64,000 nucleotides of DNA, taken from positions 1 to 64,000 of the forward strand of contig CAMPDV010000433.1 of assembly GCA_946699065.1 (NCBI GenBank), written 5' to 3'. This DNA comes from Loxodes magnus (lineage: Eukaryota; Ciliophora; Karyorelictea; Loxodida; Loxodidae). Positions 5,888 to 54,596 of the stretch are shown here, one piece after another (the first letter of the stretch is position 1; each line of letters opens with the position of its first letter). Made by a program: the position numbers and the translations under genes. The notes below the pieces were generated by a model. That model did not search any database, had not been told where the DNA came from, and was given only the letters and a program-made list of their open reading frames with translations.

Positions 5888-7643
5888 GGCTAAATAAAAT
5901 TATTCGAAGAAAGCATTGATAAAGAAGATAAAATAATAATAAAAGAAAACAAATTAAAACATTTAATTAAGAATAATAAGTCTTAATTCATAAATCCATA
6001 TTATTTCGTTTATTATTCAAAGGTTAAATTAATTATTAATAAGCTTAATTAATTATAAAAGGTAGATACTATTACCTCTCTTTCAAAGAAAATCATTAAA
6101 TAAATTGCAAAAATTAGTTAGATCAAGACTTATTAGATGAGTTTGATATTTTATCTTGCAAAGAGAAAAAGAAGCATTGATAAGATAGTATATTAGTAAG
6201 GTATTAATAGCAAAGGTTGAATATGAAAAAGAGGAAAAAATGATAATTATTACATAGTTAGTTCAATATTTGCTATTTATAATTTAGCATAAAAAGACCC
6301 TATGGCCCATACTCTTATATTCTGTTGACAATTTTATGTTTATTCAGAAGAACAATTTTGGTGATTCACATGCATTCTCAAAGAGCTAAAAGTTAAAATA
6401 TTCAATAAAAGGTAATAAATTATATAGCAATCAAAGCTTATTAAGAATGATAATCTAGAAAGAATTAGGCCAACTAAAATTATTATAAATATTAAAAGTG
6501 AATAGTAAATCGGTTCCTTGGAACAAAATATTTGAAAGAGAGTTGAAATTACCTAAAATACTAAAATCAGAGCTCTTTATTTACGAAAACTAAGAAAATA
6601 ATTAAAAAAACTCTTAAAATTGTATTAGCTTCAAGTAAGGGTTAAAAGATAGATGTATCAAAGGATAAATAATAATAATAAACATTATGAAGCATTATTA
6701 GCAATTATTTAGAAGTATATCTAAGCTTATCTCTTTTTAAAGTATTATTAAATTATTATTTATAAAAATACTAATTCACTAACGCTTTTCGACATAAATG
6801 AGAGGCATCTCATTAATAATAATAGTAATAAAAGGAAAAGTATTTAAGGAATAATCTCAAATAAATAGAATTAAAATTAAGAAATCTAGAAAAAACTAAT
6901 TTGCTCATTTAATCATTAAGCATAAAAAGATATCTTTAGTTATTAAATCTTAGTAATAAGCAATCAATACTTTGCATAAACAATAAGATATATCAAACCA
7001 ACAAGAATCAGTTTAAATTATCACTTTTTATCTCCCTATCTGAATTTTAGTCATACTTGCAAATCCTATAAATTTGAAAGAGTAGAATCTTATAGAATAC
7101 CCAAATCCAGATGAGGAATCCTCATCCTATAAAAAAGCAGAAGAAACTTATATATTTAAAAAGAAAGCAGCAAAAAATGCCTATTCAAATATAGACGAAA
7201 TTGAAGCAACACCTAGCTTGAAGGCTTAAAAGATAAAAAAGAAGAGTAAAACTTATAAAACTAAGTTATCTTATAATAAAACTATATACTCAGAATCTTA
7301 AAAACCATGGAAAGTACAAAGAGTACCTACTTTAATTGCAAAATGTAAGTAAGTCTTCTTAATTGCAAGAGGCATTTTGACTATTGCTAAAACAAATAAA
7401 AAGAAAATTTAAAGAATAAACTACTAATTGAAATTCTAGATGAACTAAATTAGTACTGAAGATCATTTAAAAGAAACAGATGAAAAGATCATCACTATTT
7501 TAAATGTGTTAACAAAACCCAGACAAATTATTGACGAAATTTTGTATTTGGTTATAAAGGAAATATAGTAAATTATTCTACTAAAACAAAAAGTTATATA
7601 AGAACAAATTAACATTAATAATAAAAATAAAAGGAGTAATTTG

Positions 7644-7652
7644 GGCGGGAAA
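7644..7652 (+). promoter_or_regulatory. GGCGGGAAA box, L1 box 3
   Basis: Same nonamer with the shared following context ATCTAAAATAATAATATTT. Unlike boxes 1 and 2 it lies inside the long W4 frame, again reading Gly-Gly-Lys, about 20 bases before an in-frame ATG. It is conserved at 40359-40367 and 53140-53148. Confidence 0.35.
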
Positions 7653-9539
7653 ATCTAAAATAATAATATTTAAAAGATGCAAATATTGAAGAGACAAAAT
7701 TTAAATTTAAAAGATGATATTATAATAATTTAAAATAAATTAAGCAACAAACATCAGAGCCAGAAAGATCCTGTTAGAGTTACAAAATTAAATGTAAAAT
7801 ATGATATGAAAAGATACTAGAAACATGATAAAGAGTTAACTGAACTTCTTACTATAATTATATTTAAAAATAGTAAAATTAAGAATATCTAATCTTTGAT
7901 GTGCCTGCAGACACTTACTAATAAATCAGAATAAAAAGATATATTTCAAGCAACTATCGTATGAAAAGACACAATTGTCAATTTATAGTCAGTATTTCAA
8001 AAAAAACATTTTATATAAAAGGATTATCGAGATTGTTTCATAAGTTTGTTTCTGTTTCTTACCTAATATTTTTCTTGTTATTACCCAAATTACTACATAA
8101 AAGGAGCTTGATCTTTCTCAATTATGAAACCATTAATATAACCACTCATCAGAGTAAAATTAAGTTTACCTGTTAAACTTAATTTCTTAAAAATATACAA
8201 TTTCGAATCTAATTCTCAGGAGCAAAACTCTACGAATTAAAATCCTTAAGTTCTGTACTAATCATTCCTTTAAATAATTGAATGCTTATTTTTGCTTTAA
8301 ACTTCAACTAACTAAATCTTAATGAAATAAAGAATTAAGTATAGTAAAAAATTAGAGCCTGATACTTAAATAAATATCATTGCTTTAGTTTTAAATAAAC
8401 TTTATGAGCATTTAGTGAATATCTAAAACTTTTATCTTTTTCCTGCAGTAAGCTGGTAGAAACATTAAAATAAGCATAAATAGTGCTAGTTTAGTTATAA
8501 AATAAATAAGCAATCTAAAAGATAAAAATTACCTTAGAAATGTTTTCTTTTAATAAATTATACAATTAAAAAAATAATAAACCAATATTTCAAATCTTGC
8601 TACTAGCTTTCTATTGGGTAAAGCAGAAAAAAAAGCCTTAGACAAATAGTAGATGAAGCAAAAATACCAAAACTTTTATTCTCCTCAGTAATAAATACCT
8701 CTTGGTTAAAGAAAAGATTCTAAAATATTAACACAAAAAGAACTTACATCAAAATTTTTTAAAAAGGAAATTGCCATTCAACGACTGGCGCTTAAAGCTT
8801 CTAATCACTGAACGAAATCATAGTTTTTAAATGGAAAGTCGAAAACTAAGAAATTTATTATTGAAAGAATAAAGCAATTTTAAAATAGGAGTTATCAACT
8901 AGGAGAGGTTTAAGCATATTAATATTTTTAGATTGAATAGAGGTAAAAAACATCAAAAATTGGAGATGCAGTATAAAAACAAGAGATGAGTCTTCAAAAA
9001 TATAGAAAACTAAGTAGAAAAGATGAAGATAGAATAAACAGAGTCAATTGTGCAATGATCAATCAAATATATAAAGAAGTGATGCCATTACCGTGAGAAT
9101 TAGTGACATTTAAAAAAGAGATGCTCATATTATAAAAATTCAATAAAAATTATTGACTAAAGAATAAGAGCATTTCAAAAAATTTAACTGCAATTAGAAA
9201 GAATATATTTACAGAAGAAAGCGAAGCGAAGCATCATTGAGATTAAAGTAAATCAAAAAATAAAATGAAGAAACTGAGTTAATCCTAGAGAAGAGAGAAA
9301 TTTAAGATGAAGGAGAACAGTTGCAAATGAAGCAGCTTATTTAAAATGGTCATCGAACAGGCACTGCAAGGTATCTTAATTACTTTACATAAATAATGAA
9401 ACAAAGTACTTAAAAATAAAAGAAAATCATAAACAGAACTAAAAAGAGAATTATGTGTAACTCAGATTAAGCCTTGCAACGCAATCAATTTTTAAATTAT
9501 TTATTAAATTAAAATTTCGACATTTTTTAAATAAAAAAT

Positions 9540-12500
9540 TATCAAAAAGCAAGTACTTTAGCGAATTTTTATTAGCTAATAATAATGGAAGTGAAGATAA
9601 GAATGGTTTTTCTATCTACCTTATTTCTTTTCAAAATTACAGTATAGTAGCTCTGTCTAATGAAATATATGTTACAACACCCGAAGTATTTCAAGCTCTT
9701 AATCTGAACTAATCAATAGGAACAAAAGATTTCCCACTAATTTCAATATCTTAAGCATTATACAATCTAAAAGAAGGTCAATCTCACAAGGTCTTTATGT
9801 CTCCACATAAACATTTAATGGATTGTTTGAATTGTAATTAATGTAAGATAGTTGTGAAATAGTGAGAGGAGGAGCATTACGATAAAAGAAAAAAATATCA
9901 CTATAAAGATATATGAAAATTGTTCTTAATAAGAAAAAATAAAAAGAAATGTGCTTAATCCATTTAAAAATAGCAGTAATATAATCTAAAAAGATCAAAT
10001 CGTAATTTTTTCACAAAACAAATATTTGTAGTTAAAATCTCAAAAATTAAACCCAAGAAAAATAAAAAAATACCTAATAAACGAAATAAAAACTAAGCAA
10101 GTTTGGGAGAAATTTAAGTAAATCAACGGAAAGAAACTTTTACTTTTATAAAAATACAATCATAAAAAAAAAGCTCACTTAAATAAAACTCAGCTTAATC
10201 TTACGAAGTCGCATTTTACTTATCAGACTAATCAAAAAAGTTGCTGGTCCAATCTCAAAAATCGCAAATAAATCATGTAAAAGAGGATTCGCCTTATAAT
10301 ATAACTCTAGTATAAGTAGAATCTAAAATATCTCACTTTAATAAGACTCAGCTCAATCTTACGAAGCAGACTTATAAAGAAAAGATTTGCTAGTACAATC
10401 AAACTGATCGCAAATAAGGTTAGCAAAAGAGTGATAACTTATTATAAAAATCTAGTATAAGAAACATCAAAATTGATTACTTTAATCAAACTCAGCACAA
10501 TCTTACGAAGCAATTTTTTATTTAGCAGACTAATCAAGCAATAGCTAGCTAATCCAATCTCAATTAATCGCAAATAAGACTAGTAAAAGAGGATTCGCCT
10601 TATAATAAAACTCTAGTATAAGTAGAATCTAAAATATCTCACTTTAAGAACACTCAGCTCAATCTTACGAAGCAGTTTTTTACTTAGCAGACTAATCGAA
10701 AAAGCTTGCTGGTCCAATCTCCATTAATCGCAAATAAGACTAATAAAAGAGAAATCGCGTCATTATAAAACTCTAGTATAAGTAGAATAAAAATTGCTCA
10801 CTTCAATAAAACTCAGCTCAATCTAACGAAGCATTTTTTTATTTAGCAGATTAATCACGAAAAGATATTTTAGTCCCAATCTCAACTAATCGCAAATAAA
10901 GCCTGCAAAAGAGTATTCTCTTCATTGATATTTTTTTTATTGAAAAATATAAACTTTCTGATTTCAAAAAAGTTCAGCTAATTAAATCGATTTGTTTTTT
11001 TTTATTTAACAGATCACTCAGTATTAACCTTGGTTTTTTAGACTTAGATTTTTGCTGGTTTTACTATGAATGGTGCATGATTCGCTTTTTTGAAAATTTC
11101 TTTTTTTTTTGAGATATTTAATGTTTCTTTTTATTAAGACCAGACTTTTCAAAATTAAGGAATACTGTTTTTGTAATAATAAAATTTCTTTATTATCGAT
11201 TAATATAGTACTGAAAATAATTTTATTTGATTTTATGGTTCTTCAGATTTTTTAAATAATAATATTTCTATAGTTTAAGGATGTGCCTTTTATTAAAATT
11301 ATCATCAATTTGGAGATGTACTACTATTATTCGTTTTAAATTTAGATTCAAATAACTTAACAAATTATCTCGCTCCTAGGTAAGAAATCAATGGCTCCTC
11401 CTATTTATAAAGTTTGCATTTTACAAAATTCGAAAATAGCAATTTTATTTAAATTTTGAAAAGCAAGTTAGTAACAATTTTTGATAGTATGATAAAAATA
11501 AAAATTCATTTATTTAGACTATTTATGAAGAGAGTTATGAAACTTTATGTTCTCTTTGCTCTTAGTCGCTAGAGTTTTGTTCTTCTTGGTTCATAAAATA
11601 ATTCTATATGCTATTCGTGTTTTTCCCCTAAGAAATTATCTTAAAATAGATGTCTTGATAACTGCACTTCAAACGAGTAGGATTATGATGGAAATTCGAT
11701 TTGCGAGCCATGCGATTGAATTCTTTCAAATTGTTTAGAATGTAATTCCTTGTAAGTTGAATGCTTATTTTGTTAAAGTGGATTTTGAATTAATAATGAA
11801 AAGTAATGTTAGCTTTGCTCTGATTAAATTTAATATTGTGAACTTTGTTCTGATGATGGTCTAAATTGTTTAAAAATGCTAAAAACCAAAAGAAAATTGT
11901 TTTTAGGATAATGCTACTAGAATTGTCCTGAAGATACTTATTATATTTCTCCATCTGAGTGTAGTTTCTGCAATAATTCAACTAAAATTGCTAAAATTGT
12001 TCAAGTGATGGAATAATTTGTCTTAATTGCTATTATCCTTTCAAGCTAACAAATTAATAATGCTTAACTAATTGCATTTAATCTAAACTGGATTAAGACT
12101 AAGATTTTATATTCTAACCATGCAGTTAGATTATTTAATTTTGCGATATCTGCACAGAAGACGGTTTAAATTGCAGATAGAGCTCACTTTCAAAAAAATG
12201 GACTTAAAATAAATGTTTAGATAACTGCGATTCTAGTTAATAGGATATAGATTAAAATAATATAATGTGAGAATTGCTAGCTAGTTATTCCATTTTGCTA
12301 GTTCTGCGCTCAAGAAATAAGAAATGATTCATAAGTTGTAATTTGCAATGTATGCTAGAGCCCAAAGGTTTTGACCTTGAATGAATGTTTAGATATTTGC
12401 GATGTAACACAATAAGATAGCGATACAAACAGAATATGTCAGAATTGCGAAGTTGCTTTGTCTCATTGCGTATAATGTAATCAAGCAGGATCTCAATGCA

Positions 12501-13050
12501 CCAGTTGCAATTTAGGATACTATATTGGAGCAGATAAAATGTGCCATTCTTGCATTGATTTCGATCCTTTCTGTGCCACATGCACAAATGATGGCTGTAT
12601 TTAATGCTTAAATCCTAAGAAATTGACTTAAAATAATGTTTAGATAACTATGATTCTAGTTAATAGGATATAGACTAAAATAATATAAGTAACTTAAACT
12701 TAACAAAATTATCAGAAAGCTATGTAAAATCATCATGAAGTATAAAATTTATTGTAGCTTCTATGACTGCTGCATTTGGATATTCTAAATTAGTTGTGAG
12801 TTATGGTTCCTCCAATTTTGTTAATCGTTTTGATTTGCTTAGTTTTTAGATGAAATGATAAAATAAACGGGCTTCATATCAGTAATGATGCCTAATGCTT
12901 TATAAGCTCTATATTCAATTAAACAAAGATATTAAATAGATAATTATAGACTTTTTATGCTTAAATTTAGATTCTAAAATTGAATCTTAATAAAAAATAT
13001 GATATAACCTATAAATCTAAGGTATTAATGCAGTCTACTTTTATTTCAAA
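9540..13050 (+). pseudogene. S: composite surface-protein gene, C-terminally truncated (L1 copy)
   Basis: The N-terminal region is ectodomain-like (NGFSIYLISFQNYSIVALSN, then CLNCNQCKIVV). From about 9.87 to 10.93 kb come about five degenerate 54-residue beta-helix repeats (GFAL, SISRIQNISL, SAQSYEAVFYLAD). From about 11.5 to 12.62 kb lies a furin-like cysteine-rich part with CxxC spacing: CQNCEVALSHCVQCN, CTSCNLGYYIGADKMCHSC, FCATCTNDGCIQC. The membrane domain found in the other copies is only begun before the sequence stops at about 13050 against block M. The family is typical of ciliate plasma-membrane or ciliary surface proteins, and the role is probably adhesion or sensing. It carries several interruptions and is not an intact gene. 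The recognisable domain order makes the identification of its nature secure; its exact start is not. Confidence 0.7.
10150..10960 (+). repeat. Tandem 145-163 bp repeats coding for Pmp-like beta-helix units (L1)
   Basis: The anchor AATCGCAAA recurs at about 10262, 10408, 10567, 10727 and 10890. The units translate to short strands ending in Gly-Phe-Ala and Glu-Ala-Val-Phe-Tyr-Leu. This is a degraded version of the GG-F-A / F-x-x-N / GG-A-F pattern seen clearly in the right copy. There are about five units here, against twelve at 35.7-37.8 kb. Confidence 0.75.
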
Positions 13051-14150
13051 TGCAACGTCTTCAACTTTATTTGCGATTATTTCAGATTAGATTATCAATT
13101 CTATTAATTAATTATCTTTTAATCAAAAAACACCACCTCATTCCTTGACTGCGTTTTATTGAAATAAGCAGTTTTTGATTATACTTAAATTAGAATTTGA
13201 TAAAATGGCGAATCCTCCGCTATTAGCGTTATTTGCGATTATTTGAGTTTAGATAATCAATTCTATTATTGATTTACCTCATAAATTAAAAACGCCACTC
13301 ACTTACTTTGCTGAGTTTTATTGAAAGGAACAATTTTCGATTCTGCTTAATCTAGAATTTGATAAAATGATGAATCCCGCCTTCATTAGCTTTATTGTGA
13401 TTATTTGAGATTAAATAATCAGATCTATTATTGAGTTATCATTTAATTAAAACACGCCATATTATTTCTCGTCAGAGTTTTATTGAAATGAACAATTTTC
13501 TATTTTTGTAATGTTTGCGTTCGTAAGATAAGCAAAGCTTTTTATCATTTGAGTAACTTAATTATCTATCAAGGCTTATTTAAGAGTTAATTGCAAATAT
13601 GAAAGATCTTACTTATTATTATCATCCTATTATTTTATGTTTGAATTGATAAATAGTCGTTTGCATATAAATTTAAATTGATTTATTTTGGATATGTATT
13701 TCTGCTATTTTTGATCTGTTTAAGCATATTTCTATTTAGTATTCCTATTAAGAACAATTTTCATATGTCTTTATAGTGATATTTTTTCTCTTATCATTAG
13801 TATCCTCCTCTCAATATTCACTACTATCCATGCATTATGTACAATTCAAACAATCCATTAAATGTTTATGTGGAGACATAAAGACTGTGTGAGATTTACC
13901 TTCTTTTAGATTGTATAATGCTTAAGATATTGAAATTAGCGGGAATTCTTTTGTTCCTATTGATTAGTTCAGATTAAGAGCTTGAAATACTTCGGGTGTT
14001 GTAACATATATTTCATTAGACAGAGCTACTATACTGTAATTTGAAAAAGAAATAAGGTAGATAGAAAAACCATTCTTATCTTCACTTCCATTTTATATTA
14101 GATAACAAAATTTTGTTAAAGTACTTACTTTTGATAAATTTTTATTTAAA
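13051..14150 (-). pseudogene. S gene fragment: N-terminal region and three beta-helix repeats (copy M)
   Basis: Minus-strand counterpart of 9.54-10.9 kb. The repeat anchor TTTGCGATT (one variant) lies at about 13069, 13231 and 13393. The N-terminal ectodomain-like region spans about 13.6-14.15 kb. The furin-like and membrane parts are missing, because the block junction at 13.05 kb cuts the gene inside the repeats. Only a remnant remains. Confidence 0.65.
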
Positions 14151-14189
14151 AAATAGTTAAAATTTTTAATTAATAAATAATTTTAAAGT

Positions 14190-17100
14190 TATTTTGCGTT
14201 CCAACATTCAATGAAAGTTCCTCATAATTCTCTTTTATTGATGTTTGTGATTTTCTTTTTATTTTTAAGTACTTTGTTTCATTATTTATGTAAAGTAATT
14301 AAGATACCTTGCAGTGCCTGTTCGATGACCATTTTAAATAAGTTGCTTCATTTGCAACTCTTCGCTTTCATCTTAAATTTCTCTCTTCTCTAGGATTAAC
14401 TCAGTTTCTTCATTTTATTTTTAGAATTGCTTTAATCTCAATGTTTCTTCGCTTCATTTTCTTCTGTAAGCATCTCCTTTCTAATCGCATTAAAATCTTT
14501 AGGATTTTTCTTATTCTTTTACCAATTTTTCTTCTTCAATTTCTGAAATTATAAGCATCTCTTATATAAATATCACTAATTCTCACGGTAATTGGCATCA
14601 CTTCTTTATATATTTGATTGATCATTGCACAATTGACTCTGCTTACTCTATCTTCATCTTTTCTACTTAGTTTTCTATATTTTTGAAGACTCATCTCTTG
14701 TTTTTATACTACATCTCTAAATTTTAAGTTCTTACCAATGTTCAATCTAAAAATATTAATATGCTTAAACCTCTCCTAGTTGATAACTCCTATTTTAAAT
14801 TGCTTTATTCTTTCAATAATAAATCTCTTATTTTCAACTTCCTTTTTAAGTACTATGATCTATTCCTTGAGATTAGAAGCTTAAAATGCAAGCTGTTGAA
14901 TGGTAGTTTCCTTTTCATAAAATTTAGATGTAAGTTCTTTTCGTATTAGTATATTAGAATCTTTCTTGTTATCTCAGGAGGTGTTTATTATTGGGGTAAG
15001 GTGACTCTTATTATTTTTGCTTCATTTATTATTTGTCTAGGGATTTTTTCTCTGCTTTACCCAAGAAAGATAGGAACAAGATTTGAAATATTGTTTTATT
15101 ATTTGTAAATGAATAACTAAAAGAAAATATTTCAAGTTAATTTTTATCTTGTAGACTGCTTATTTATTTGGATTTTCATTACTAAACTAGCACTAATTTA
15201 TGATAACTTTAATCTTTCTACCAACTAACTGCAGAAGAAGATAAAAGCTTTACATATTCACTCAAATGTTTAAGTTTATTTAAAAACTAAAGCAATGGTA
15301 CTTATATAAGTATCAGGCTCTAACTTTTTACTATGCTTAATTATTTTCTTCATTAAGATTTAGTTAGTTGAAGTTTAGAGCAGAAATAAGGAATCAGTTA
15401 TTTAAAGATATGATTGATACAGAACTTAAGAATTTCAATTCGTAGAGATTTGCTCCTGAAAATAAGATTTGAAGTTGTATATTTTTAAGAAATTAAGCTT
15501 AGCAGGTAAATTCTATTTTACTCTGTTTATCGTTTATATAGATGGCTTCATAATTGAGGAAGATTAAGCTCCTTTTATGGAGTAAATTTGGCAATGGAAA
15601 GAAAAAATTAGGTAGAAACAGAAGCAAGATTATGAAACAATCTCGATAATCCTTTTATATAAAATGTTATTTCGAAATACTAACTATAAGTTGATTATTG
15701 CAAGATTTTCAAGTTAATTTAGTCAAAAAAGTAATTTGAGAAATTAAAATATCTTTATAAGATGTCTTTGCTCTTATGTATGGATATATACAATAAATTA
15801 TACTAAATTTCATTTAAATTAATTTTATCTTAATTAATAATACAGTTTTTAAGATTAAATACTCTTAATTTTACTAATTTAAATAAATAATAATATGAAA
15901 TACAGTTAACTCTTTATCATGTTTCTAGTATCTTTTCATATCATATTTTACATTTAATTTTGCAAATCTAACATGATCTTTCTGGCTATAATGTTTGTTG
16001 CTTAATTTATTTAAATTATTATAATATCAACTTTAAAATTTAAATTTTGTCTCTTCAATATTTGCATCTTTTAAATATTATTATTTTAGATTTTCCCACC
16101 TAAATTACTCCTTTTATTTTTATTATTAATGTTAAATTGTTCTTATATAACTTTTTGCTTTATTAGAATAATTTTACTATATTTCCTTTATAACCAAATA
16201 TAAAATTTCGTCAATAATTTGTCTGGATTTTGTTTAAACACATTTAAAATAGTGATGATCTTTTCATCTGTTTCTTTTAAATGAATCTTCAGTACTAATT
16301 TAGTTCATCTAGAGTATCAATATTATTTAGTAGTTTATTCTTTAAATTTTCTTTTATTTGCTTAAGCAATAGTCAAAATACCTCTTGCAATTAAGAAGAC
16401 TTACTTAAATTTGCAATTAAAGTTAGGTACTCTTTGTACTTTCTATGGTTTTTAAGATTCTGAGTATATAGTTTTATTATAAGATAACTTAGTTTTATAA
16501 GTTTTACTCTTCTTTTTTATCTTTTAAGACTTACAAGCTAGGTGTTGTTTCAATTTCGTCTATATTTGAATAGGCATTTTTTTGCTTTCTTTTTTAAATA
16601 TAAGTTTCTTCTGCTTTCTTTTAGGATGAGGATTCCTAATTTGGACTTAGGTATTCTATAAGATTCTACTCTTTCAAATTTTATAGGATTTGCAAGTATG
16701 ACTAAAATTCAGATTTTCTAATTTATGAATATCGTTTACTTAGTGATCTCTACATTATTTATCTTTTATCTCTAATTTAATCTATTTTGTAATTAACTCT
16801 TATTCAATAATGCCTTCTCTTATCCTTTATCTTCAAGATATTTATATTTTCTTTTATTTTTTATCTTCATTGCATGAATCTCTACTGATGCTGCTCTATT
16901 TAACTATCCGAATTTTGTAAGAGAAAATTATTCCAGGCTAAAATCTTAAAAGATGAGTTGGATTTAACTGTTTAAATTTTAAATTGAAATAGAACTTGAA
17001 TAGTTTCTAAATGATTTTAGCATTAATTATTTTTACTTAGCCATTAAACATTCTAGGTCTTATGATTTAAATTAGCTTTTATGAAATTCTATCTTTATTA

Positions 17101-22900: not shown

Positions 22901-22904
22901 TTCA

Positions 22905-27100: not shown

Positions 27101-28337
27101 AAGCAATTCGATAAAATATAGCAAAAAAGTGAGAAAGCTCATGAACAGATTTACGAACTAATTTTAAATAAAAATGAATTAGATCTCCTTAGTATTAACA
27201 ATCTCATTTATCATGTTCTATTCTCAATGATGATAGGAGATATATCTTACAGCTTTAAAGTATGGGAAAAAACAATCAAACTGATGAATAATCATTTATT
27301 TTAGATGAAGTAATAGTAAATCTACGTAGATGAAGACTACTTCCAATTTCTTTCTGAACTATTTAGAGTAGAGCAAGTGTATTAATAGATCCTATAAACT
27401 AAGAACAAGAATCTAGCAATAGATTTTATACAGAACATAAAATTGCTTAATTATATTTCTAAGGTAGAATAGATTAAGTTAGAAAAGAAGCAGGAGGAGA
27501 CTTTTAAGAACACTTGCTTGATACTGTTCAGCTTTAAAATGAAGCAATATGAAGGAAAGGAAATATTCTAGTGTATATAGAATATAGCTCTGAATGTAGA
27601 AGAAGATATTTTCTAGCAAAAGGTATTCAACTACTTCATGCAGATATTATACTCTAATATACTTATATAAAGCAAATCTATTAAACAATAATAAAATGTA
27701 ATTATCAATGTTTAGCAGGATCAAAAATTGACTGAGGAATAAAAACTATGGCTTACAAGGAATTAAAGTATGTTCAATCAGCAATTTCCAATAAAGGAGG
27801 AAAGCATAATGTAGTTGCTGTAGCTATAAGAACTCATTTAAAATTAAAATACCTAGATAAAGCTTAAGAATAACTAGCATATTATTTTTAATATATTAGA
27901 AACATATTCAAAGTACCTCAAATTACGATTCTAGGAATCATTCATCTAGCTAATGGTGATTATAGTTAGCTGCAGGAGTCTTTTAACTCTATATGTAACT
28001 TCGACTTGGATCTTATTCAAAAAACCCACCTAGCTTTATATAGAATCTAACAAATTTATGATGAGCAATTTGAAGAGAATTAAGATGATGCTTAATTCTT
28101 TTAAGCAATTTAGTAAGAGTAATGAAATGATCTTATCAAGAAGTTTAAAGAAGGAAGCTGTAGTGTTAGAGAGTTACTTGTACTAGTTTATTTGGAAGAT
28201 AATAGATCAGGAACAGTAGATAAAGACGAATTCAAATGTTTAGTTAAAAGATTAAATTATAATCTTAGTGATTATAGAGTAAATGAAATTTTCACCAATG
28301 TTAGGCAAAATAATATTCCAGGATTAGTACTTTGATA
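24103..28337 (+). pseudogene. Large EF-hand protein gene fragment, decayed and truncated
   Basis: About 1,400 codons of plus-strand coding-like sequence, markedly less AT-rich than its surroundings, with roughly ten in-frame TGAs or frame changes. Clean stretches include MSNKNIVMNPEDFNSQLAF, LTDKFSKQIQYKLNFNEQQ, a 300-codon run from about 27.0 to 27.9 kb (QQKVFNYFMQILYSNILI), and at the end a canonical EF-hand loop in EDNRSGTVDKDEF at about 28.2 kb. The protein is long, helical and without an obvious membrane segment in the part seen. A calcium-responsive giant protein, such as an IP3/ryanodine-receptor-like arm, is possible but unproven. The fragment ends abruptly at the junction with block module X. 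It appears to be a host gene piece caught in germline-limited DNA, and the duplicated flanks at 54.3-54.6 kb lack it. Confidence 0.55.
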
Positions 28338-29779
28338 ATTTATTTTATAAAAAACGTCTAAAACATCAAATAATTTTCTTGATGTGTATAATATAAGATT
28401 TCGTCTATTTAAGTTCAAATTTAGTTGCATATACGTTTTTAAATTCCAAAAATTCGTGATTTTTAGCATTTTCGTTGTACTCTTTTTAAATTTTTTTCTT
28501 ATTAATTCTAGATTTGTTGATAAAAACTGATTCTCCCTAAATTTTAATTTTTGTTAAATTTATGTCTATTAACTTCTACATTTAAAAAGCTCAATAATAT
28601 TAGTCAATTTTTAAAACTCATTAATGATTGTTAATTTTTAAGTGGGATTGTTTCTTGTAAAGAGTATTTTGATACTTTATTCTCTAATATATTTTGGATT
28701 TAATGTAACTTTCCTTGACTAAATTAGATAAAAAAGATAAATTTCTTATTTTGTTGTTCCTCTATGAAGGTAAAAATGTACTAAAGTTCTTTTTATTTAT
28801 ATCATTAAAATAATAAAATAGAAGCTGTTTATTTGATTAAAAAACTAAATATATGAATCCATAAAGAAGTTTCCTTTTATTAATTAAATAAAAATTAGGT
28901 TAATTTACACTATCTATTGAATAATCTACTTCCAAAAAGCATACTAAAATAATTAAAATAAAGAAAATTTCCCGCTTTTGAAATATTTATAGTTTATTAT
29001 TAAAATATTATATTTAACTTAAGAGAACTACCTTTATTTAATAGCCTCATTAGCTTAGCTATTATTATTAACCACATTAGTTTGTTCTAAGCTTTTAAAC
29101 GTTAGTATATATAATAGATGCTAAAGTCTATTCTCTACCTTACTTTGTTTTGTACAGTATTAGGTAAAGATGAATATAGATTAAAAATGTAAATCTTATT
29201 TGATTAGAATTTTGGTTATAATTAAGCTATATTAAGTGTATTAGGGTATAAATTAAATAAAATTAGTTCTACTTGATATCTTTCTTAAGTATAGATTAGA
29301 TATAACTTAGGATGTTCTTAGCTTATTATTATTTGTATCTCTTCAACTTTAATTTAATAAATTATAAGTAAAATTAGAAACATACTATCTTTTAATGGAA
29401 ACACTTATAAACATATCTTATAAGCAAAAGAATCAAAGAGAGATTATCAAATAAGCAACTGAAAATATGACTGATAAATGTAATACTTATATAGCTTAAA
29501 CAATTCAAATATATTCAATAAACATTTTAACTTCCTCTAGTCATTTAAAATTTACTAACATCTAACAATAGTACCTGAAACTAAGAAATCAAATCTATCT
29601 ACAAAACATACTTAAAATTACAACAGAATTAGCGATTCAAAGCACCTCTACGAAGTACTGAGGATCAAAGCTAGAATATTGAAATAGAAATTCTAACAAG
29701 AGAAGGAGTTTAACTTTGCTTTTATTATATAACTTTAAAGGTTAAACTCAGCACGAAATTTACAAAAATTTAAATTGCT
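28338..29779. other. AT-rich spacer of module X
   Basis: No coding frame supported. It contains one box-like TTTCCCGC (28968-28975) and is nearly identical to 54597-56037. A 65-codon minus-strand standard-code frame at 28272-28469 lies over the junction and is not credible as a gene. Confidence 0.55.
28968..28975 (-). promoter_or_regulatory. TTTCCCGC, E2F-like core in module X
   Basis: Matches TTTSSCGC but lacks the final C of the W boxes and their downstream TAAAATAATAAT context. It is repeated in copy 3 at 55226-55233. Confidence 0.2.
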
Positions 29780-30871
29780 ATGACTGTAGGAAGTAAAGTT
29801 ATTTGCGAGGGAAAACATTTTAGTAAAAATTAGAATGAAATATATTTAAAGAAAAAGGCTAAAGAATATCAGATAGGGAAATTATTTTTAGGATAAAATT
29901 TCGACGAATATTGAGCTAAGTGAGTATTAAACTATTTAAAAGAATTCGGTAGTTCATTAATAGAGAAGACAAAAAGAAAAAGAAAATTCAAAATATAGCA
30001 AAAATAATAAGAGCAAGCTCTTAAAATAAAAAAGTTGAGATCAATGCCAATATATAAAGGCAATTAAAATTTATCTAAAAGCAAAGAGATTAGAATTTAT
30101 TAAGCTCCTTTAAGAAAATATTCCTTTTAAAATTTAAAGAGAGATAAAAACTGAAAGTAAAAGATAAGAAAAGAGTTTACTTAAAATAAAATAAACTAAG
30201 TTTTCGTAATAATAATGGAATTCGAAGAAAAAATCAATTTTTTTCACAATCAACTTAAATGAAGAGGAAATAACGATTATTATCCAAGTAAAAAATAAGG
30301 TTTCAATTAGAGGAAACTTAGTCAGATAGAAATTAACAAAAACATTACTGTTAAAGCATAAATATATTCAAAATCCTGGATAAAATGATAAGTAGTGAAA
30401 ATTATAATATTCTTAATAAAGTTTGCTACAATAGTAAAGGAATAAAATGAAGATTATCTGAGAGTAAAGAAAGAACGTTAGATGAAGGCTATAAAAATAT
30501 TAAGAGAAAAGAAAAATAAAACTTGGCACTTAATTTATTTTTATATTCTGAGAGGCACATATAATTTATAGATAAAAGAAAAGAGATTGTAGCTATGTTT
30601 TAAGTAAAACAAACATCTTCGCTTTATCTTCAATTTATTCTTATTTTTTTTCAAAATTATACTAACTTACATAGAAATCATAAAAACTCAGAATCTTTAG
30701 ACTAAAGAAAATTATTTTTAAATATAAAACAATTTAGAAAAATAAAATTTATTTATTATTAAAATTACTTACTAAAAGACTTTTAAAAATAACTTTTAAA
30801 TTCTATATCTAGATGCTATATATTTCATTAATTATTATTAATAAGTTCAGCAAACTTTAATTATTTGCTGA
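29780..30871 (+). pseudogene. X1: unidentified basic coding region, interrupted (right copy)
   Basis: From an ATG at 29780 one frame of 364 codons can be followed to a TGA at 30869, with a handful of interruptions. It begins MTVGSKVICEGKHFSKNQ and continues Lys/Arg/Gln-rich (KRKRKFKIQQKQQEQALKIK, REKKNKTWHLIYFYILRG). A hydrophobic stretch near 30.63-30.68 kb (RFIFNLFLFFFKIILTYIEI) could be one membrane segment. The second copy at 56038-57129 has exactly the same length and shows the same interruptions where I compared them, so the gene was already dead before the block duplicated. The family is not recognised. Confidence 0.45.
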
Positions 30872-32612
30872 TAATCTTAAAATTATATTCTTCAATTGCC
30901 CACATTTATTAGCTATTAATAAATTCAAAAGTTTATTCTTTATATTTCTTTCAATCTATTCAATAACAAGATTAAGTATATACCTATAATTAAACTTAGA
31001 GTTTTGGTTAGTGGTATTTGAAATTTAACTAAAATATATTATAATATGTTTGTATGATTTTAACTTATCCTGTTATCTTTATTCATTTCTTAAAATTTTG
31101 AATTTTAGTTATTTAGGTTTTTAGTTTTTATAAGTATTTTTGAAATATTATAAAATATACTATTGTTTATAGAATTATCTTATATTACAAATAAAAGCAA
31201 TCAACTAAAAACTCTTAATAGTTTATTTCTTTTTTATTTTATTTTAATTTATTTTAATTTAATTTAATATCGTTATTCCTCCTTTATTTTTTCAGACTTC
31301 TCACTTTTATTTAATTATTTGTTGTATTTATCTATTTATTTCTTGCTAATTTAGATATGTTTAACCTGATTTGATTTTTTAAAGCTATTTAATAAAGTTC
31401 AAATTATTTATAGCATACCTAAAAAATGGAAAATAATACAATCCTATCACTCTATTAAAATCTTATTGACTCTTCTTTTATAACAATAAATAAAATACAA
31501 TAATTAAAAAATCTATTTGGGTGCTCTAAAGTCTTAAAATAACAGATCTGGGATCGCTATAATTCAAATAAACTAATTAGAACTTATGTACTAAATAATT
31601 AGACCTTATGTACTAAATGGGACCTATCTGAGAACTAATTAACTAACGTAATTTTCCATAGCTTTAAAAGTCTGATATAGAAGAGATTTAAAAGAAATTC
31701 ATTGATGCTTATGAGTACAGAGCTAGTTTTCTAAGACTTGCAAAAATTAACTAAATTTGTGCTTCAACATTTCTTAAACCAGCAATCCTAAGGTAATCTC
31801 TCCTTAGATAGTAAATATATATAAATTAAACGATACTATCGATAATACCAAATTAAGGGAGCAACCTTATGAATGATAATCTGATTTTATTGATTTGTAG
31901 ATAAAAATATCTACACTTTAGATTCAATTACTTTAATTTTTTAATTATGAGAAATTTGTTGGATGCTAAAGAGATAATTTCTTCAGATATATGTATCTTC
32001 AGGGTACTTAAATTACTCTAAGATACTAAGAAGGGAATCTATTTCCAAAGCCCCCTTTAGTAAAAGTTTTCCAACTAACGAAAGCATCACTTTTAAACTA
32101 TAAAATAAAGAAAATATAATAGCAATGAGAATACAAGGAGACGCCAAATACATACAAAAAATTATAATAGAAGCAGATTAACAAAGAGCTTATTCAAATT
32201 CTTTGTGATATAGAATTAAATCTATCAAAGTGACTTGCTAATTTAAAATATTAGTATCGTAAGCAAAGATAAGCATTAACTTCTTTTCATACTTATCTTC
32301 TTTACTATTCATGCAAATGCACTCCTTTTTCAAACTTCTTCAATTAATTCAAAGCTGTTAACACTATAAAGCAGATACTTTCACTTCTTACTTTTCTGCT
32401 TATTTTGCTTTTTTTCATCTTCTCCGTATAGAGTGATTTCTAGATTTAAATTTTTAAGTTTTTATCAATTTCTTTATTCTTCTTTTAGCAAGTTCCATTT
32501 AAGATTGTAATTAATCCTTATAAGGCATTTTAGTCAGAATTTATAATGCTAATATTAACCATCCTGAATGAAGGCTTATCTCTGCCGATCTTTATCGCCG
32601 TTGTTCTTGGTA
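30872..32612. other. AT-rich spacer between X1 and S (right copy)
   Basis: Mostly non-coding. It contains an ATTTA/TTTTA low-complexity run at about 31.21-31.27 kb and a 22-bp unit (TAATTAGACCTTATGTACTA) twice in tandem near 31.57-31.62 kb. Short minus-strand open pieces downstream of the S stop suggest that the S tail may once have extended further. Confidence 0.45.
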
Positions 32613-34329
32613 TCAATTTTTGCGCGATTAATTGAATTTTTTTATACACTACATTAATTATCTTATCGATTTCGTGAACTCTTATGACATAAATTTATTT
32701 AATAACTATAAATATGTGTATTTATATGTGTTAATGAAGTTCTGAGTTTAAACTTTTGATGAATATTAATAATGTTTATATTTAATTTATATTTTATTTA
32801 TGAATTTATAAATTAAAATATTTGTAATTTTATTAATATTTTTATAATTAAGAATTTTTTAAACTTCAATTTGTAATTGTTCATTTCTCTCATCTCGCCT
32901 CTCATTTTCTATAAATATGTTATCACTTTTTTATTCCTAGATTTAAGTTTGATTTTTCTCTCTCCAAACTGATTCATCTATAATCTTAAAATCTTGTCCT
33001 GTGTTTTGAATTCCAGAAGTAGTACTATTATGGATATCTCTCGATGTTGTATTTTGTTCGATTTATACTTACAAACTCTAAACTCTTACTTGCTCAGCTT
33101 TTTATTTTCTTTCTTAATAAATGCTATAAATAATTAAAACCAAAGCTATAATATAATTAGATATTAGTATAACCATAGTTACTACTACAATTAAAAAGGC
33201 TAAATATTCTAGTTTGTTGCTAATTGGATGAACGTAAAATGAAAACTGTATAAGTAGAATAAAAATCCAAATTTCGTTGATAATAGTTATTTTAAATATA
33301 ATTTTGCTATTCAAAGGTTTATATTTTATCAAATATCATATCCATATCAGTTATAAAAATGAAGCTAATGAAATTTGAAGTTCTGGTTGATTTTAACCTA
33401 TGATCATGATGAAAACAACTACTATTCTTCTTACAAGAAAAATAGCATAGAAGTATATAACTTAAGGTCTATTAGTTTCTTTAAGCTCATCAAATAGATT
33501 TTTAAATCTTTATTCTTATTGCTTCTTTGCCATTATTAGCTCCATTGTTACTTCTTAAGCATTAAATATTGCAAGATTTTATAAATAGTATTTCTTTATC
33601 TAAATGAATACTGTACAACAGAAAATGATCATTAGAATCTGTATATTAAAGCTTACTAAAAAGAAATATGAGATAAAAGTATTCATAGTAACGTATAAAT
33701 CTTCTAGGCTTTAAAATCTAATCTATAATAAAATAGAAATCATCAAACCTAAAGCAACATTAATACCTGTTCTTATAAAGGCTGAATATCTATAATTCTC
33801 ATACGTTTTTTCCATATATTTTCCTATTTTATTATTCAAATCTCTTAATTATCAAATTATATAAAAAACAACACAGCATATAATAATGCTAAGTAATTCA
33901 CAAACTGCATTTGAAATAAAAGTAGATGTATTAATACCTTAGATTTATAGGTTATATCATATTTTTTATTAAGAATCAATTTTAGAATCTAAGTTTAAGC
34001 ATAAAAAGTCTATAATTATCTAATTAATATCTTTGTTTAATGTAAATAGAGCTTATAAAACATTAGGCATCATTACTGATATGAAGCCTGTTATTTTTAT
34101 CATTTCATCTAAAAACTAAGCAAATCAAAACTATTAACAACAATTTGAGGAGCCATAACTCACAACTAAATTAGAATATGCTAATGTAGCAGTTATAGAA
34201 GCTACAATTAATTTTATATTTTATGATGACTTTACGTAGCTTTCTGATAATTTTGTTAAGTTTAAGTTACTTATATTATTTTAATCTATATCCTATTAAC
34301 TAGAATCATAGTTATCTAAACATTAATTT

Positions 34330-35250
34330 TAAGTCAATTTCTTAGGATTGATGCATTAGATACAGCCATCGTTTGTGCATGCGGCACAGAAAGGATCGAA
34401 ATAAATGCAAGAATGGCATAAGTTATCTGCTCCAATATAGTATCCGAAATTGCAACTGGTGCATTAAGATCCTGCTTGGTTACATTATGCGCAATGAAGC
34501 AAAACAACGTCGCAATTCTCACATATATTATTTTAATCTATATCCTATTAACTAGAATCGCAGTTATCTAAACATTAATTTTAAGTCAATTTTTTTGAAA
34601 GTGAGCACTATCTGCAGTTTAAACCGTCTTCTATGCAGATGTCGCAAAACTAAATAATATAACTGCATGGTTGGCATATAAAATCTTAGTCTTAATCCTG
34701 TTCAGATTAAATGCAATTAGTTAAGCATTATTAATTTGTTAGCTTGAAAGGATAATAGCAATTAAGACAAATTGTTCCATCACTCGAACAACTTTAGCAA
34801 TTTTTGATTGAATTATTACAGAAACTACACTCAGATGGAGAAATTTAATAAGTATCTTCAGGACAATTCTAGTAGCATTATCCTAAAAACAATTTCTTTT
34901 GGCTTTAGCATTTTAAACAATTTAGACCATCATCAGAACAAAGTTCACAAAATTAAATTTAACCAGAGCAAAGCTAACATTACATTTCATTATTAATTCA
35001 AAATCCACTTTCACAAAATAAGCATTCCACTTAAGATGAATTACATTCTAAACAATTTGAAAGTATTAAATTGCATGGCTCGCAAATTGAATTTCTGTCA
35101 TAATCCTACTCGTTTGAAGCGCAGTTATCAAGACATCTATTTTAAGATAATTTCTTAGGGGAAAAACACGAATTGCAAATAGAATTATTTTGCGAACATG
35201 ACGAACAAAACTCTAGCGACTAAGAGCAAAGAGAACATAAAGTTTCATAA
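34330..35250 (-). other. Furin-like cysteine-rich repeat region of S (right copy)
   Basis: Minus-strand translation shows the CxxC / C-x(5-8)-C pattern of growth-factor-receptor-type repeats. Compared with copy 3 (60.6-61.65 kb) it lacks 171 bp, exactly 57 codons, between two GCAATTCT-ACATAT sequences. This is one repeat unit, apparently lost by recombination between repeats. The plus-strand standard-code frames here (34373-34555, 34808-34996) are shadows. Confidence 0.65.
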
Positions 35251-35727
35251 CTGTCTTCATTAATAGTCTAAATAAATGAATTTTTATTTTTATCATACTA
35301 TCAAAAATTGTTACTAACTTGCTTTTCAAAATTTAAATAAAAATTGCTATTTTCGAATTTTGTAAAATTCTAACTTTATAAATAGGAGGAACCATTGATT
35401 TTTTACCTAGGAGCGAGATAATTTGTTGAGTTATCTGAATCTAAATTTAAAACGAATAATAGTAGTACATTTCCAAATTGATGATAATTTTAATAAAAGG
35501 CACATCCTTAAACTATAGAAATATTATTATTTAAAAAATCTGAAGAACCAAAAAATCAAATGAAATTATTTTCGGTACTTAATTAATCGATAATAAAGAA
35601 ATTTTATTATTACAAAAACAGTATTCCTTAATTTTGAAAAGTCTGATCTTAATAAAAAGAAACATTAAAAATCTCTAAAATTAAAGATATTTTCAAAAAG
35701 GTAAATCATCCACCGCTCCCAGTTGTA

Positions 35728-37800
35728 CCAGCAGAAAACAAAGATTAGTTAATCAATTCTATTATTGAGTTATCTTATAAATAAAAAACACCACCCCGCT
35801 CCTTGGCTGTGTTTTAATGAAATGAACAATTTTCGATTCTTTTCATTTTTGATCTATATAAATAGGCAAATCCGCCTTAACTTGCATTATTTGCGATTAT
35901 ATCAGATTAGATAATAAATTCTATTATTGAGTTTTTTTATAAATTAAAAACACCACCCAATGCTACTACTGTGTTTTATTAAAATAAACAGTTTTCGATT
36001 CTTTTCATTTTTGATCTATATAAATAGGCAAATCCGCCTTAATAAGCTATATTGTCGTCAATTTGAGATTAGATAATAAATTCTATTATTGAGTTTTTTT
36101 ATAAATTAAAAACACCACCCAATGCTACTGCTGTGTTTTATTGAAACAAACAGTTTTCGATTCTACTCAAATTAGAATTTTATAAAAAGGCAAATCCACC
36201 TTAACTAGCATTATTTGCGATTATTTCAGATTAAATTATCAATTCTATTACTGAGTTATCATATAAACAAAAAACACCACCCACTTACTTTGCTGAGTTT
36301 TATTGAAAGGAACTATTTTCGATTCTACTTAATCTAGAATTTGATAAAATGGTGAATCCTCCGCTATTAGCTATATTTGCGATTATTTGAGTTTAGATGA
36401 TTAATTCTATTATTGAGTTTTAATATAATGAAAAAACACCTCCTAATTAAACAGCTGTATTTTTTTAAAATAAGCAATTTTAGATTCTACTCAAATTAGT
36501 ACTTTAAAAAATGGCAAATCCACCTGTACTAGCATTATTTGCGATTATTTGAGTTTAGTTAATCAATTCTATTATTGAGTTATCTCATAAATAAAAAGCA
36601 CCGCCTAATTACTCTGCTACGTTTTTTTGAAATAAGCAGTTTTCGATTCTATTTATTTTCGATCTTTAAGCTCAGGCGAATCCACCATGACTAGCATTAT
36701 TTGCGATTATTTGAGATTAGATAATAAATTCTATTATTGAGTTGAATTAAGAAAAAACACCACCCAATGCTATTGCCGTGTTTTATTGAAACAAACAGTT
36801 TTCGATTCTACTCAAATTAGAATTTTATAAAAAGGCAAATCCACCTTAACTAGCATTATTTGCGATTATTTCAGATTAGATTATCAATTCTATTAATTAA
36901 TAATCTTTTAATCAAAAAACACCACCAAGTTCCTTGGCTGTGTTTTAATGAAATGAACAATTTTCTATTACACTTAATTTAGAACTTGATAAAATGGCGA
37001 ATCCTCCGCTATTAGCGCTATTTGCGATTATTTGAGTTTAGATAATCTTTTCTATTATTGCTTAATCTCATAAATTAAAAACACCACCCACTTACTTTGC
37101 TGAGTTTTATTGAAAGGAACTATTTTCGATTCTACTTAATCTAGAATTTGATAAAATGGCGAATCCGCCTTCATTAGCTATATTTGCGATTATTTGAGTT
37201 TAGTTAATCAATTCTATTATTGAGTTATCTCATAAATAAAAAGCACCGCCTAATTACTCTGCTGCGTTTTATAGAAAGGAACAGTTTTCGATTCTATTTA
37301 TTTTCGATCTTTAAGCTCAGGCGAATCCACCATGACTAGCATTATTTGCGATTATTTGAGATTAGATAATAAGATCTATTATTGAGTTTTAATTTAATGA
37401 AAAAACACCACCCAATGCTACTGCTGTGTTTTTTTTAAATAAACAATTTTCGATTCTACTCAAATTAGAATTTTATAAAAAGGCAAATCCACCTTAACTA
37501 GCATTATTTGCGATTATTTCAGATTAAATTATCAATTCTATTACTGAGTTATCATATAAATAAAAGACTGCGCCAAATTATACTGCTGCGTTTTATTGAA
37601 ATAAACAGTTTTCGATTCTATTTATTTTTGATTTTTATAATCATGCGAATCCGCCTTTTGTAGCTTTATTTGCGATTATTTGAGACCAGTTAATCAAATC
37701 TATTATTGAGTTGTCATTTATCTAAAACAGGCCATTTTATTACTCGGCAGAGTTTTATTGAAATGAACAATTTTCTATTTTTGTAATGTTTGTATTCTTA
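35728..37800 (-). repeat. Tandem 162-bp array, about 12 units, coding beta-helix repeats
   Basis: The anchor TTTGCGATT occurs (one degenerate) at about 35890, 36051, 36213, 36375, 36538, 36699, 36858, 37021, 37182, 37343, 37506 and 37668, a mean period of 162 bp or 54 codons. The unit on the minus strand is IIANxAxxGGFA, a variable strand, IENCSFxQNxAExLGGAFYL, then DNSIIELINQTQ. Paired Gly-Gly-Ala/Phe and Phe-x-x-Asn motifs are the signature of chlamydial Pmp-type right-handed parallel beta-helices. Units differ from one another by substitutions, so the array is not freshly amplified. Confidence 0.85.
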
Positions 37801-40358
37801 AGATAAGCAAAGGTTTTTTTCATTTGAGTAACTTAAATATTTATCAAGCTTATTTAAGAGTTAATTGCAAATATGAAAGATCTTTCTTATTATTCTCATC
37901 CTATTATTTTTATGTTTTGAATTGATAAATAGTCGTTTTGCATATAAATTTAAATTGATTTATTTTGGATATATATTTCTGCTATTTTTGATTAGTTTAA
38001 GCACATTTCTTATTAGTATTCCTATTAAGAACAATTTTCATATGTCTTTATAGTGATATTTTTTTCTTTTTATCCTAATGCTCCTCCTCTCAATATTTCA
38101 CAACTATCCAAGCATTATGTACAGTTCAAACAATCCATTAAATGCTTATGTGGAGACATTAAGACCACGTGAGATTTACCTTCTTCTAGATTGTATAATG
38201 CTTAAGATATTGAAATTAGCGGGAATTCTTTTGTTCCTATTGATTAGTTCAGATTAAGAGCTTGGAACACTTCAGGTGTTGTAACATATACTTCATTAGA
38301 GCGGGCAACTATACTGTAATTTTGAAAAAGAAATAAGGTAGATAGAAAAATTATTCTTATCTTCATTTCCATTATTATTAGCTTATAAAAATTCGTTAAA
38401 ATACTTGCTTTTTGATAATTTTTTATTTAAAAAATAGTTAAAATTTTAAATTAATCAATAATTTTAAAGCTATTTGCGTTGCAACTCTCAATGAAAGCTC
38501 CTCATCATTCTCTTTTTATTTCTTTTTATTTTATTATTTTTATTTTCAAGTCTTTTGCTTCATTATTTATGTAACGTAATTAAGATGTTTAGCAGTGTCA
38601 GTCAGATCATCGCTTTAAATAAGCTGCTTCATTTGCAACTCTTCTCCTTCATCTTGAATTTATGATTAACTCAGTTTCTTCATATTATTTTTAGTATTGA
38701 TTTAATCTCAATGCTTCTTCGCTTCATTTTCTTCTGTAAGCATCTGCTTTCTAATCGCATTAAAATCTTTAGGATTTTTCTTATTCTTTTGTCAATTTTT
38801 CTTCTTTAATTTCTGAAATTATAAGCATCTCTTATATAAATGTCACTAGCTCTCACAATAATGTAATCTCTTCCTTATTTATCTACTTGATTATTGAGCA
38901 ATAGTCTTTTTTTACTCTAGCTTCATCTTTTTTGCTTAATTTTCTGCATTTTTGAAGATTAATTTCCTGTTTTTTACTACGTCTTCAAGTTTTGAAGTTT
39001 CTTACCAATCTTCAGTCTAAAAATTTTAATATGCTTGAAGCTCTCCTAGTTGATAATTCCAATTTTAAATTGTTTTATTCTTTCAATAATAAATTTCTTA
39101 GTTTTAAACTTCCTTTTTTAAGTACTATGATCTATTCCTTGAGATTAGAAACTTAAATTGCAAGCTGTTGAATGGTAGTTTCCTTTTTAAAAAATTTAGA
39201 TGTAAGTTCTTTTCGTATTAGTATATTAGAATCTTTTCTTGTTATCTCAGGAGGTGTTTATTATTGGGGTAAGGCGACTCTTATTATTTTTGCTTCATTT
39301 ATTATTTGTCTAGGGATTTTTTCTCTGCTTTACCCAAGAAAGATAGGAACAAGATTTGAAATATAGTTTTATTATTTGTAAATGAATAAATAAAAGAAAA
39401 TATTTCAAGTTAATTTTTATCTTGTAGACTGCTTATTTATTTGATTTTATTACTAAACTAGCACTAATTTATTCTAACTTTAATCTTTCTACCTGCTTAC
39501 TGCAGAAGAAGAGAAAAGCTTTACATATTCACTCAAATGCTTAAGTTTATTTAAAAACTAAAGCAATGGTACTTATATAAGTATCAGGCTCTAACTCTTT
39601 ACTATGCTTAATTATTTTCTTCATTAAGATTTAGTTAGTTGAAGTTTAGAGCAAAATAAGGAATCGGTTATTTAAAGATATGATTGATACAGAACTTAAG
39701 GATTTTAATTCGTAGTGTTTTGCTCCTGAAAATAAGATTTGAAGTTGTATATTTTAAGAAATTAAGCTTAGCAGGTAAACATTATTTTACTCTGTTTATC
39801 GTTTATATTAATGGTTTCATAATTGAGGAAGATCAAGTTCCTTTTATGGAGTAATTTGGGCAATAGAAAGAAAAAAATTAGGTAGAAGCAAGATTATGAA
39901 ACAATCTCGATAGTCCTTTTATATAAAATGCTTTTTTCGAAATACTAACTATAAGTAGATTATTGCAAGATTTTCAAGTTAATTTAGTCAAAAAAGTAAT
40001 TTTGAGAAATTAAAATATCTTTTATAAGATGTCTTTGCTCTTATGTATGGATATATACAATAAATTATACTAAATTTCATTTAAATTAATTTTATCTTAA
40101 TTAATAATACAGTTTTTAAGATTAAATACTCTTAATTTTACTAATTTAAATAAATAATAATATGAAATACAGTTAGCTCTTTATCATGTTTCTAGTATCT
40201 TTTCATATCATATTTTACATTTAATTTTGCAAATCTAACATGATTTTTCTGGCTCTAATGCTTGTTGCTTAATTTATTTAAATTATTATAATATCAACTT
40301 TAAAATTTAAATTTTGTCTCTTCAATACTAGCATCTTTTAAATATTATTACTTTGAAT

Positions 40359-54326: not shown

Positions 54327-54596
54327 CAAGATATAAACTTGCAAATTAACTGACTCACTGTTTATTTCTCTTCTCCTTATACATCCATCTCCTTGTAATA
54401 TCCTTGCTTATTTGTAAAGTTTATCATACTAAGTTAGCTACTATAACTGATCTATTTTCTATTTTATTGTCAAGAAATCTTTTAATGATTCAAATTTATT
54501 ATTTTAATTGTTGTTCTATTTTTACTTAAAGTTGTCTTAGCTATGCCTTTAATTTTGTTGGATTAAATATATAATATAAATTTCCTTTTACTTTGC
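54327..54596. other. Unique 270 bp in place of the EF-hand gene fragment
   Basis: Where the first copy has 4.2 kb of EF-hand coding sequence, this copy has 270 bp without a partner in the window, slightly less AT-rich, with no convincing frame. Confidence 0.6.

Follow-up and report, generated by a model that had tools for sequence, protein, structure and literature searches.

A large membrane-protein gene is repeated along a contig of the Loxodes magnus assembly, and sequence comparison makes it probable that this is an array, on a somatic contig, of genes for an adhesin or receptor, and that ectopic recombination has diversified the family. The contig (CAMPDV010000433.1, 293,558 bp, here C433) holds 12 copies of the gene, 21-28 kb apart and in the order + - - + - - + - - + + -, copy numbers being approximate. 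The window, that is, the whole stretch analysed, is its first 64,000 nt, and includes three copies and a remnant. The protein would act at the cell surface in adhesion or recognition; a role as antigen, or in contact with prey or mates, would be compatible with it. On the best reading, the family is of a kind already known in type, the recombining surface-protein families of protists, and its array appears to resemble the mating-type array of Tetrahymena, as we discuss below.

The array and its copies

The relevant sections of PMC11441545 give 706 Mbp for the MAC assembly of L. magnus and 848 Mbp for the MIC assembly, report ~2,700 RVT_1 copies, assign the species code 27 (UGA as Trp or stop), and describe canonical germline-limited sequences as not found in it. 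The assembly searched here totals 705,730,643 bases in 7843 contigs, in agreement with the first of these totals and not with the second. It contains at least 150 matches to retroelement reverse transcriptases (150 scored among 3,403 candidates), and the reverse transcriptases have in-frame TGA, TAG and TAA. From the assembly total, the genetic code and the retroelement load we infer that the assembly is somatic (MAC). It is unphased, so that some contigs may be alleles and not every copy or comparison below counts as independent; nearly identical repeats are also open to misjoining. On two other contigs (C5131 and C20), reverse-transcriptase domains stand head to tail with a ~2.5-kb period, which is an unusual tandem arrangement for parts of retroelements.

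The genetic code of the arrayed genes is consistent with this source. L042, an intact relative on contig C418, reads as a single frame of 2,281 codons under code 27, in which the final TGA may be the stop. In-frame TGA outnumbers TGG by 25 to 3 in L042 and by 12 to 4 in copy 3. Code 6 was rejected because in-frame TGA would then read as stop. Tetrahymena and code 6, on which the first-pass annotation based its proposed searches, are not supported; the code is table 27, with TGA as Trp.

The CxxC part of the gene, used as a DNA query, gave at least 57 matches on at least 14 contigs (40 of 162 candidates scored). Along C433, eight of the 12 copies match the full membrane domain and four are truncated. 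Thirty loci were fetched. The membrane domain is entire in 12 of them, including the frameshifted L023 and L029, and truncated in 17; in the remaining locus a different membrane domain takes its place. Within the window, the genes are embedded in a large palindrome and a direct repeat (Table 1). The palindrome arms are 85.8% identical between 7972-9998 and 13678-15700, and 93.2% identical between 7038-7896 and 15851-16714. Searches of a collection of open-access papers listed none on such a Loxodes surface-protein family.

Table 1. Features of the window, with positions counted from its first nucleotide
Feature	Position	Strand	Remarks
Left palindrome arm	7038..9998	.	Covers the 5' flank and the beginning of the gene; repeated in inverted orientation at 13678-16714
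Copy 1	9585..13054	+	Frameshifted pseudogene: N-terminus, Pmp-like repeats, CxxC, partial membrane domain; ends at fusion junction; located by tblastn of intact parts
Copy 1, CxxC segment	11530-12684	+	tblastn with intact parts
Putative exchange point, last CxxC repeat motif	12600..12621	+	Copy-1 coordinates, approximate (indels); array-C418 divergence drops
Remnant	13055..14091	-	N-terminus and Pmp-like repeats, inverted, fused to truncated copy 1; frame change near start
Right palindrome arm	13678..16714	.	
Direct repeat, tandem part of array	28328..34589	.	Matches 54589-60842 at 96.2%; 6.3 kb
Copy 2	32797..38372	-	Open frame; 14 repeat motifs by pattern; tail frame change at ~32.86 kb
Copy 2, membrane domain	34271-33126	-	
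Copy 3	59046..63503	-	Open frame; stop codon not fixed
Copy 3, N-terminus	63503-62751	-	
Copy 3, repeats	between N-terminus and pre-segment	-	6 motifs by pattern
Copy 3, pre-segment	62192-61695	-	
Copy 3, CxxC segment	61679-60528	-	
Copy 3, membrane domain	60524-59379	-	
Copy 3, tail	59378-59046	-	

The first-pass annotation described three copies, each with furin repeats, a membrane domain and a tail, all in a single orientation. This description holds for copies 2 and 3, which have a CxxC segment, membrane domain and tail and lie, like the remnant, on the minus strand. It fails for copy 1, which is on the plus strand, keeps ~130 of the 382 membrane-domain residues and has no tail. The remnant, placed by the annotation at 13.05-14.15 kb, was recovered at 13.05-14.09 kb. 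Copies in the window lack ~840 nt that L042 carries (7979-8816).

Copy 1 has 10 frameshifting indels over 1651 nt (11400-13050) when compared with its intact paralogue L015. Two of them, del582 and del1416, are also present in L011-L014, and a further one, del1551, is common to eight other loci but not found in copy 1. Since indels recur across loci, they are inherited and not read errors. Inverted repeats follow directly after the truncation in all 17 truncated loci, including copy 1 and its 100% twin L009, and in none of the 13 others. The fusion junction is base-identical in 16 of the 17, the remaining one (L032) having a further deletion at the junction. The simplest reading is that one ancestral tail-on fusion was later copied with the array. 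The interval C2228:64241-65891 is 100% identical to window 11400-13050, and the two are probably alleles or a duplication in the assembly.

The region at 22800-28400 of the window is GC-richer (28%), with a coding-like signal and, by eye, an EF-hand-like stretch; most of it is not matched at 53.4-54.6 kb in the adjacent unit. The coding scan was trained on this surface-protein family and two reverse transcriptases and serves as a pointer only. No Pfam family scored above its cut-off in the frames scanned in this region or in selected frames elsewhere in the repeat unit.

Domains of the predicted protein

The 54-residue repeats noted in the first-pass annotation were confirmed as 162-nt units at 13.07-13.50, 35.74-37.78 and 62.18-62.91 kb, with a ~160-nt array at 10.37-10.92 kb. 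They carry the motifs I-E-N-C-x-F-x-x-N and GGFA, of which a pattern search counts 20 in L042. A relative on another contig (L055 and L056, C360:209500-229300) has 88 motifs over ~15 kb by a slightly narrower pattern; they are split 76, 10 and 2 among the three frames, so that the gene as assembled lacks a single clean frame. The repeat number is thus extremely variable, with 88 in this gene and 6-20 in the three others counted. The Pfam family Chlam_PMP (PF02415) matches above its cut-off of 20.6 bits in copy 2 (22.6), the N-terminal part of copy 3 (23.8) and L042 (75.0); copy 3 as a whole scores 15.9 bits, below the cut-off. AlphaFold, run with two sequences, gave stacked strands over approximately residues 190-460. 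Confidence in the repeats is moderate, with block means of 67-90 at residues 191-400 and a mean pLDDT of 52.5 overall. A PDB fold search with the repeat model placed chondroitinase B first, followed by many beta-helix enzymes and other beta-helix proteins and tailspikes, all at E 0.27 or worse and none at or below 0.001. By type, the Pmp-like repeats would form a beta-helix, for which the fold evidence is moderate.

Domain searches for the two profiles named in the first-pass annotation were divided: the Pmp-like profile was recovered, and the furin-like one was not. The CxxC spacing of the second segment is seen directly in the sequence, but no curated furin-like or GFR profile in Pfam matches it at E<=1. 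No Pfam family scores above its cut-off in this segment, the only match being a Giardia VSP family at 10.7 bits against a cut-off of 31.4. At 199.9-201.2 kb of C433, one gene copy contains five additional matches, in tandem, to a CxxC unit with ~252-nt spacing (query 972-1247).

The C-terminal half has six hydrophobic segments in copy 3 and seven in copy 2 in a Kyte-Doolittle scan. At the N-terminus, no 19-residue hydropathy window reached 1.6, and the putative signal peptide was judged by eye. Although the membrane domain has many copies, with at least 86 matches in the genome (86 scored of 2,569 candidates) that form groups near 60% and 45% identity, no Pfam model scored over its cut-off in any of the 13 members searched; there were three weak matches, each in one member, the best at 17.5 bits against 29.7. 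Its AlphaFold model has a mean pLDDT of 38.7, too low for a fold search. In PDB sequence searches, the membrane domain gave 12 matches, mostly rhodopsin entries (best E 0.15), which were taken as chance, and copy 3 gave an unrelated protein as its best match (E 0.024). The same membrane domain is found under laminin-G-like ectodomains in two other genes, L043 and L057, one above the Pfam cut-off (29.9 against 27.6 bits) and the other below it (22.5). By sequence, it is a membrane module common to differing outer domains.

Exchange between copies

The divergence between related genes changes abruptly along their length. In all seven array-type genes compared with the C418 gene L037, the CxxC part differs at 12.5-14.5% of its sites and the membrane part at 2.4-3.7%. 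The Fisher p values, 8e-18 to 2e-26, are descriptive, because the cut was chosen with the step already known and some of these genes are near-identical. Between array-type and C418 genes, dS is 0.26-0.37 in the CxxC part and 0.03-0.06 in the membrane part. The tail is intermediate in the comparison with L037, with 14-36 of 336 sites differing, and is less uniform than the membrane part. When copy 3 is aligned to L042, the 5' flanks are 71-80% identical and the 3' flanks 91-97%. For copy 2 and L042, the 5' flanks are closer (78-86%) and the tail dips to 83%; like the less uniform tail above, these figures weigh against the preferred reading.

The drop in divergence falls within the last CxxC repeat motif, and genes on three other contigs (C289, C52 and C1945) depart from the common sequence at the same point. 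The last dense array-C418 difference is at locus position 2701, and L038 departs at ~2705-2720, the two junctions lying within ~20 nt of each other. L038 has the common ectodomain joined to a membrane domain whose remote relationship to the first is seen by profile comparison only (hhalign 97%, E 3e-11, 24% identity). In the CxxC part, similar distances separate L038, L037 and L019 (12.0%, 13.8% and 14.1%). This does not hold for their membrane parts, and the two halves therefore cannot be fitted by one tree. Both types of membrane domain are present on C418.

Tests for mosaic ancestry, which assume even rates along the segment, point in the same direction. An incompatibility test gave p=0.0045 for the CxxC part of 20 array-type sequences and 0.001, its floor, for the whole length of 26 sequences. 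Twenty-four unique sequences gave 10,038 triplets for an exact triplet test; all were ranked and exact p values computed for the best 1500. Among these, 43 pass Bonferroni correction; the 43 involve eight child sequences, with 30 falling on L030, and represent few events. The best cases are a 115-nt array-type tract in the C418 gene L035 (3e-6) and the truncated L016 and L020, scored as mosaics of L018, which is intact, and L030, which is truncated (6e-6 and 2e-4). Window-by-window counts give a similar mosaic pattern for L015. A longest-run permutation test was set aside, since rates differ from one part of the gene to another. L019, L021 and L022 share one CxxC count and are possible alleles.

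The L016 mosaic would join an intact and a truncated lineage, with either as donor. Chimeric assembly is the main technical alternative to mosaic ancestry. The presence of the L016 type on three contigs (C2690, C433 and C360) argues against a single misjoin and is still compatible with alleles. The proposal of the first-pass annotation that modules could be exchanged with other family members is borne out as mosaic ancestry, truncated copies included; the direction of exchange and any role in expression lie outside this result.

These patterns suggest how the family may have diversified. Long similar units in both orientations would permit unequal crossing-over, inversion and gene conversion, and the CxxC motif that recurs at the ectodomain end may supply the homology by which an ectodomain is joined to a membrane module. 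Ectopic crossing-over and gene conversion among the units, and with other contigs, would leave the outer parts diverse while homogenising the membrane module and the 3' flank. Surface proteins with differing outer parts on one shared anchor would result.

Alternative explanations and known systems

The similarity of the membrane parts might be ascribed to constraint only, following ordinary segmental duplication with differential selection. This is quite unlikely. Selective constraint is indeed indicated by dN/dS below 1 in both parts: NG86 estimates on 10 intact genes (45 pairs, figures being for pairs with at least 15 changes) give an omega of 0.30-0.39 in the CxxC part (34 pairs) and of 0.28-0.74 in the membrane part (36 pairs), the latter resting on few changes. 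The step is, however, equally strong at synonymous sites, the similarity runs on into the 3' flank of copy 3, and L038 joins the same ectodomain to a very different membrane domain. Carriage of the surface gene as cargo of a mobile element might account for its presence on at least 14 contigs and for the large inverted repeats, and is very improbable: no transposase, polymerase or integrase profile was found in the frames scanned, at 28.0-38.0 kb (minus), 38.0-48.0 kb (plus), 22.0-28.6 kb (plus) or in one minus frame of 4.0-9.5 kb, and two LINE reverse-transcriptase loci of the genome have no match in the window at 1e-3. The first-pass annotation instead regarded the copies as germline-limited DNA, a reservoir eliminated from the soma that feeds somatic genes. 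Repeats, pseudogenes and palindromes are typical of such DNA in ciliates. Absence from the somatic genome, its defining feature, was not found, however: the copies lie in an assembly that equals the L. magnus MAC in total and so appears to be somatic, and canonical germline-limited sequences were not found in this species. The annotation itself named a somatic location of the copies as a ground for refutation, and the location that we infer would refute this part of it. We regard such a reservoir as extremely improbable and the annotation's germline assignment as not supported.

Somewhat less improbable, though still unlikely, is that the array is a locus for mating type or self-recognition, either homologous to the mat array of Tetrahymena thermophila or similar to it in its working. 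The parts of PMC3608545 and PMC10901506 that describe its MTA and MTB genes present large surface proteins that vary in their ectodomain and have furin-like Cys-rich repeats as well as several membrane helices. Each mat gene has furin-like repeats and a membrane exon, with all but the end copies truncated (PMC3608545, in its account of the array); the genes form head-to-head pairs, and the soma joins them within the membrane exon and deletes the rest in a programmed manner (PMC3608545; PMC10901506, in the corresponding sections). The Loxodes array shares with this locus the CxxC repeats on a multi-pass membrane domain, the variable ectodomain on a shared 3' module, and truncated membrane modules within the array (17 of 30 loci; 4 of 12 copies on C433). 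In contrast to the mat genes, those of Loxodes are single and of mixed orientation, without head-to-head pairs. Complete copies are many (8 of 12 on C433) and not confined to the array ends, truncated copies share frameshifts, the family is large by its membrane-domain matches, and the array is kept in an assembly that appears somatic. A related proposal is that the array is a self/non-self locus of mating-type-like nature, in which gene conversion from neighbouring, partly truncated cassettes would vary the ectodomains on a shared membrane module, following the logic of the mat array minus programmed DNA elimination; we give it little likelihood. Loxodes is a ciliate reported to lack extensive DNA elimination. 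The presence in its apparently somatic assembly of complete and truncated surface genes that have pieces in common, with an exchange point that can be defined, offers a test of whether ectopic recombination alone may do the job of programmed rearrangement at the mat locus.

A diversifying adhesin or receptor family, the reading that we prefer, has partial parallels in other surface proteins. The chlamydial Pmps end in an autotransporter barrel. The Loxodes repeats are like theirs in scoring over the curated PF02415 cut-off in the sequences given above, while the hydrophobic, multi-pass C-terminal half of the Loxodes protein is unlike them; no barrel model was among the Pfam matches at E<=1. 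The surface antigens of Paramecium are GPI-anchored coat proteins. The Loxodes protein differs from them in its multi-pass membrane domain and Pmp-like repeats, and several hydrophobic segments followed by a tail take the place of a single C-terminal GPI signal, as judged by hydropathy. Both are nevertheless multigene families with internal tandem repeats, duplicates along one chromosome or contig, and a pseudogene (one in Paramecium, in the part of PMC9788069 on these genes). The section of PMC6564038 on Tetrahymena LRR genes reports rapid divergence and repeat-unit shuffling and proposes ectopic recombination. These genes resemble the Loxodes family as rapidly diverging ciliate genes for which ectopic recombination is proposed, and differ from it in domain, the LRR repeats being exons of exactly 90 bp.
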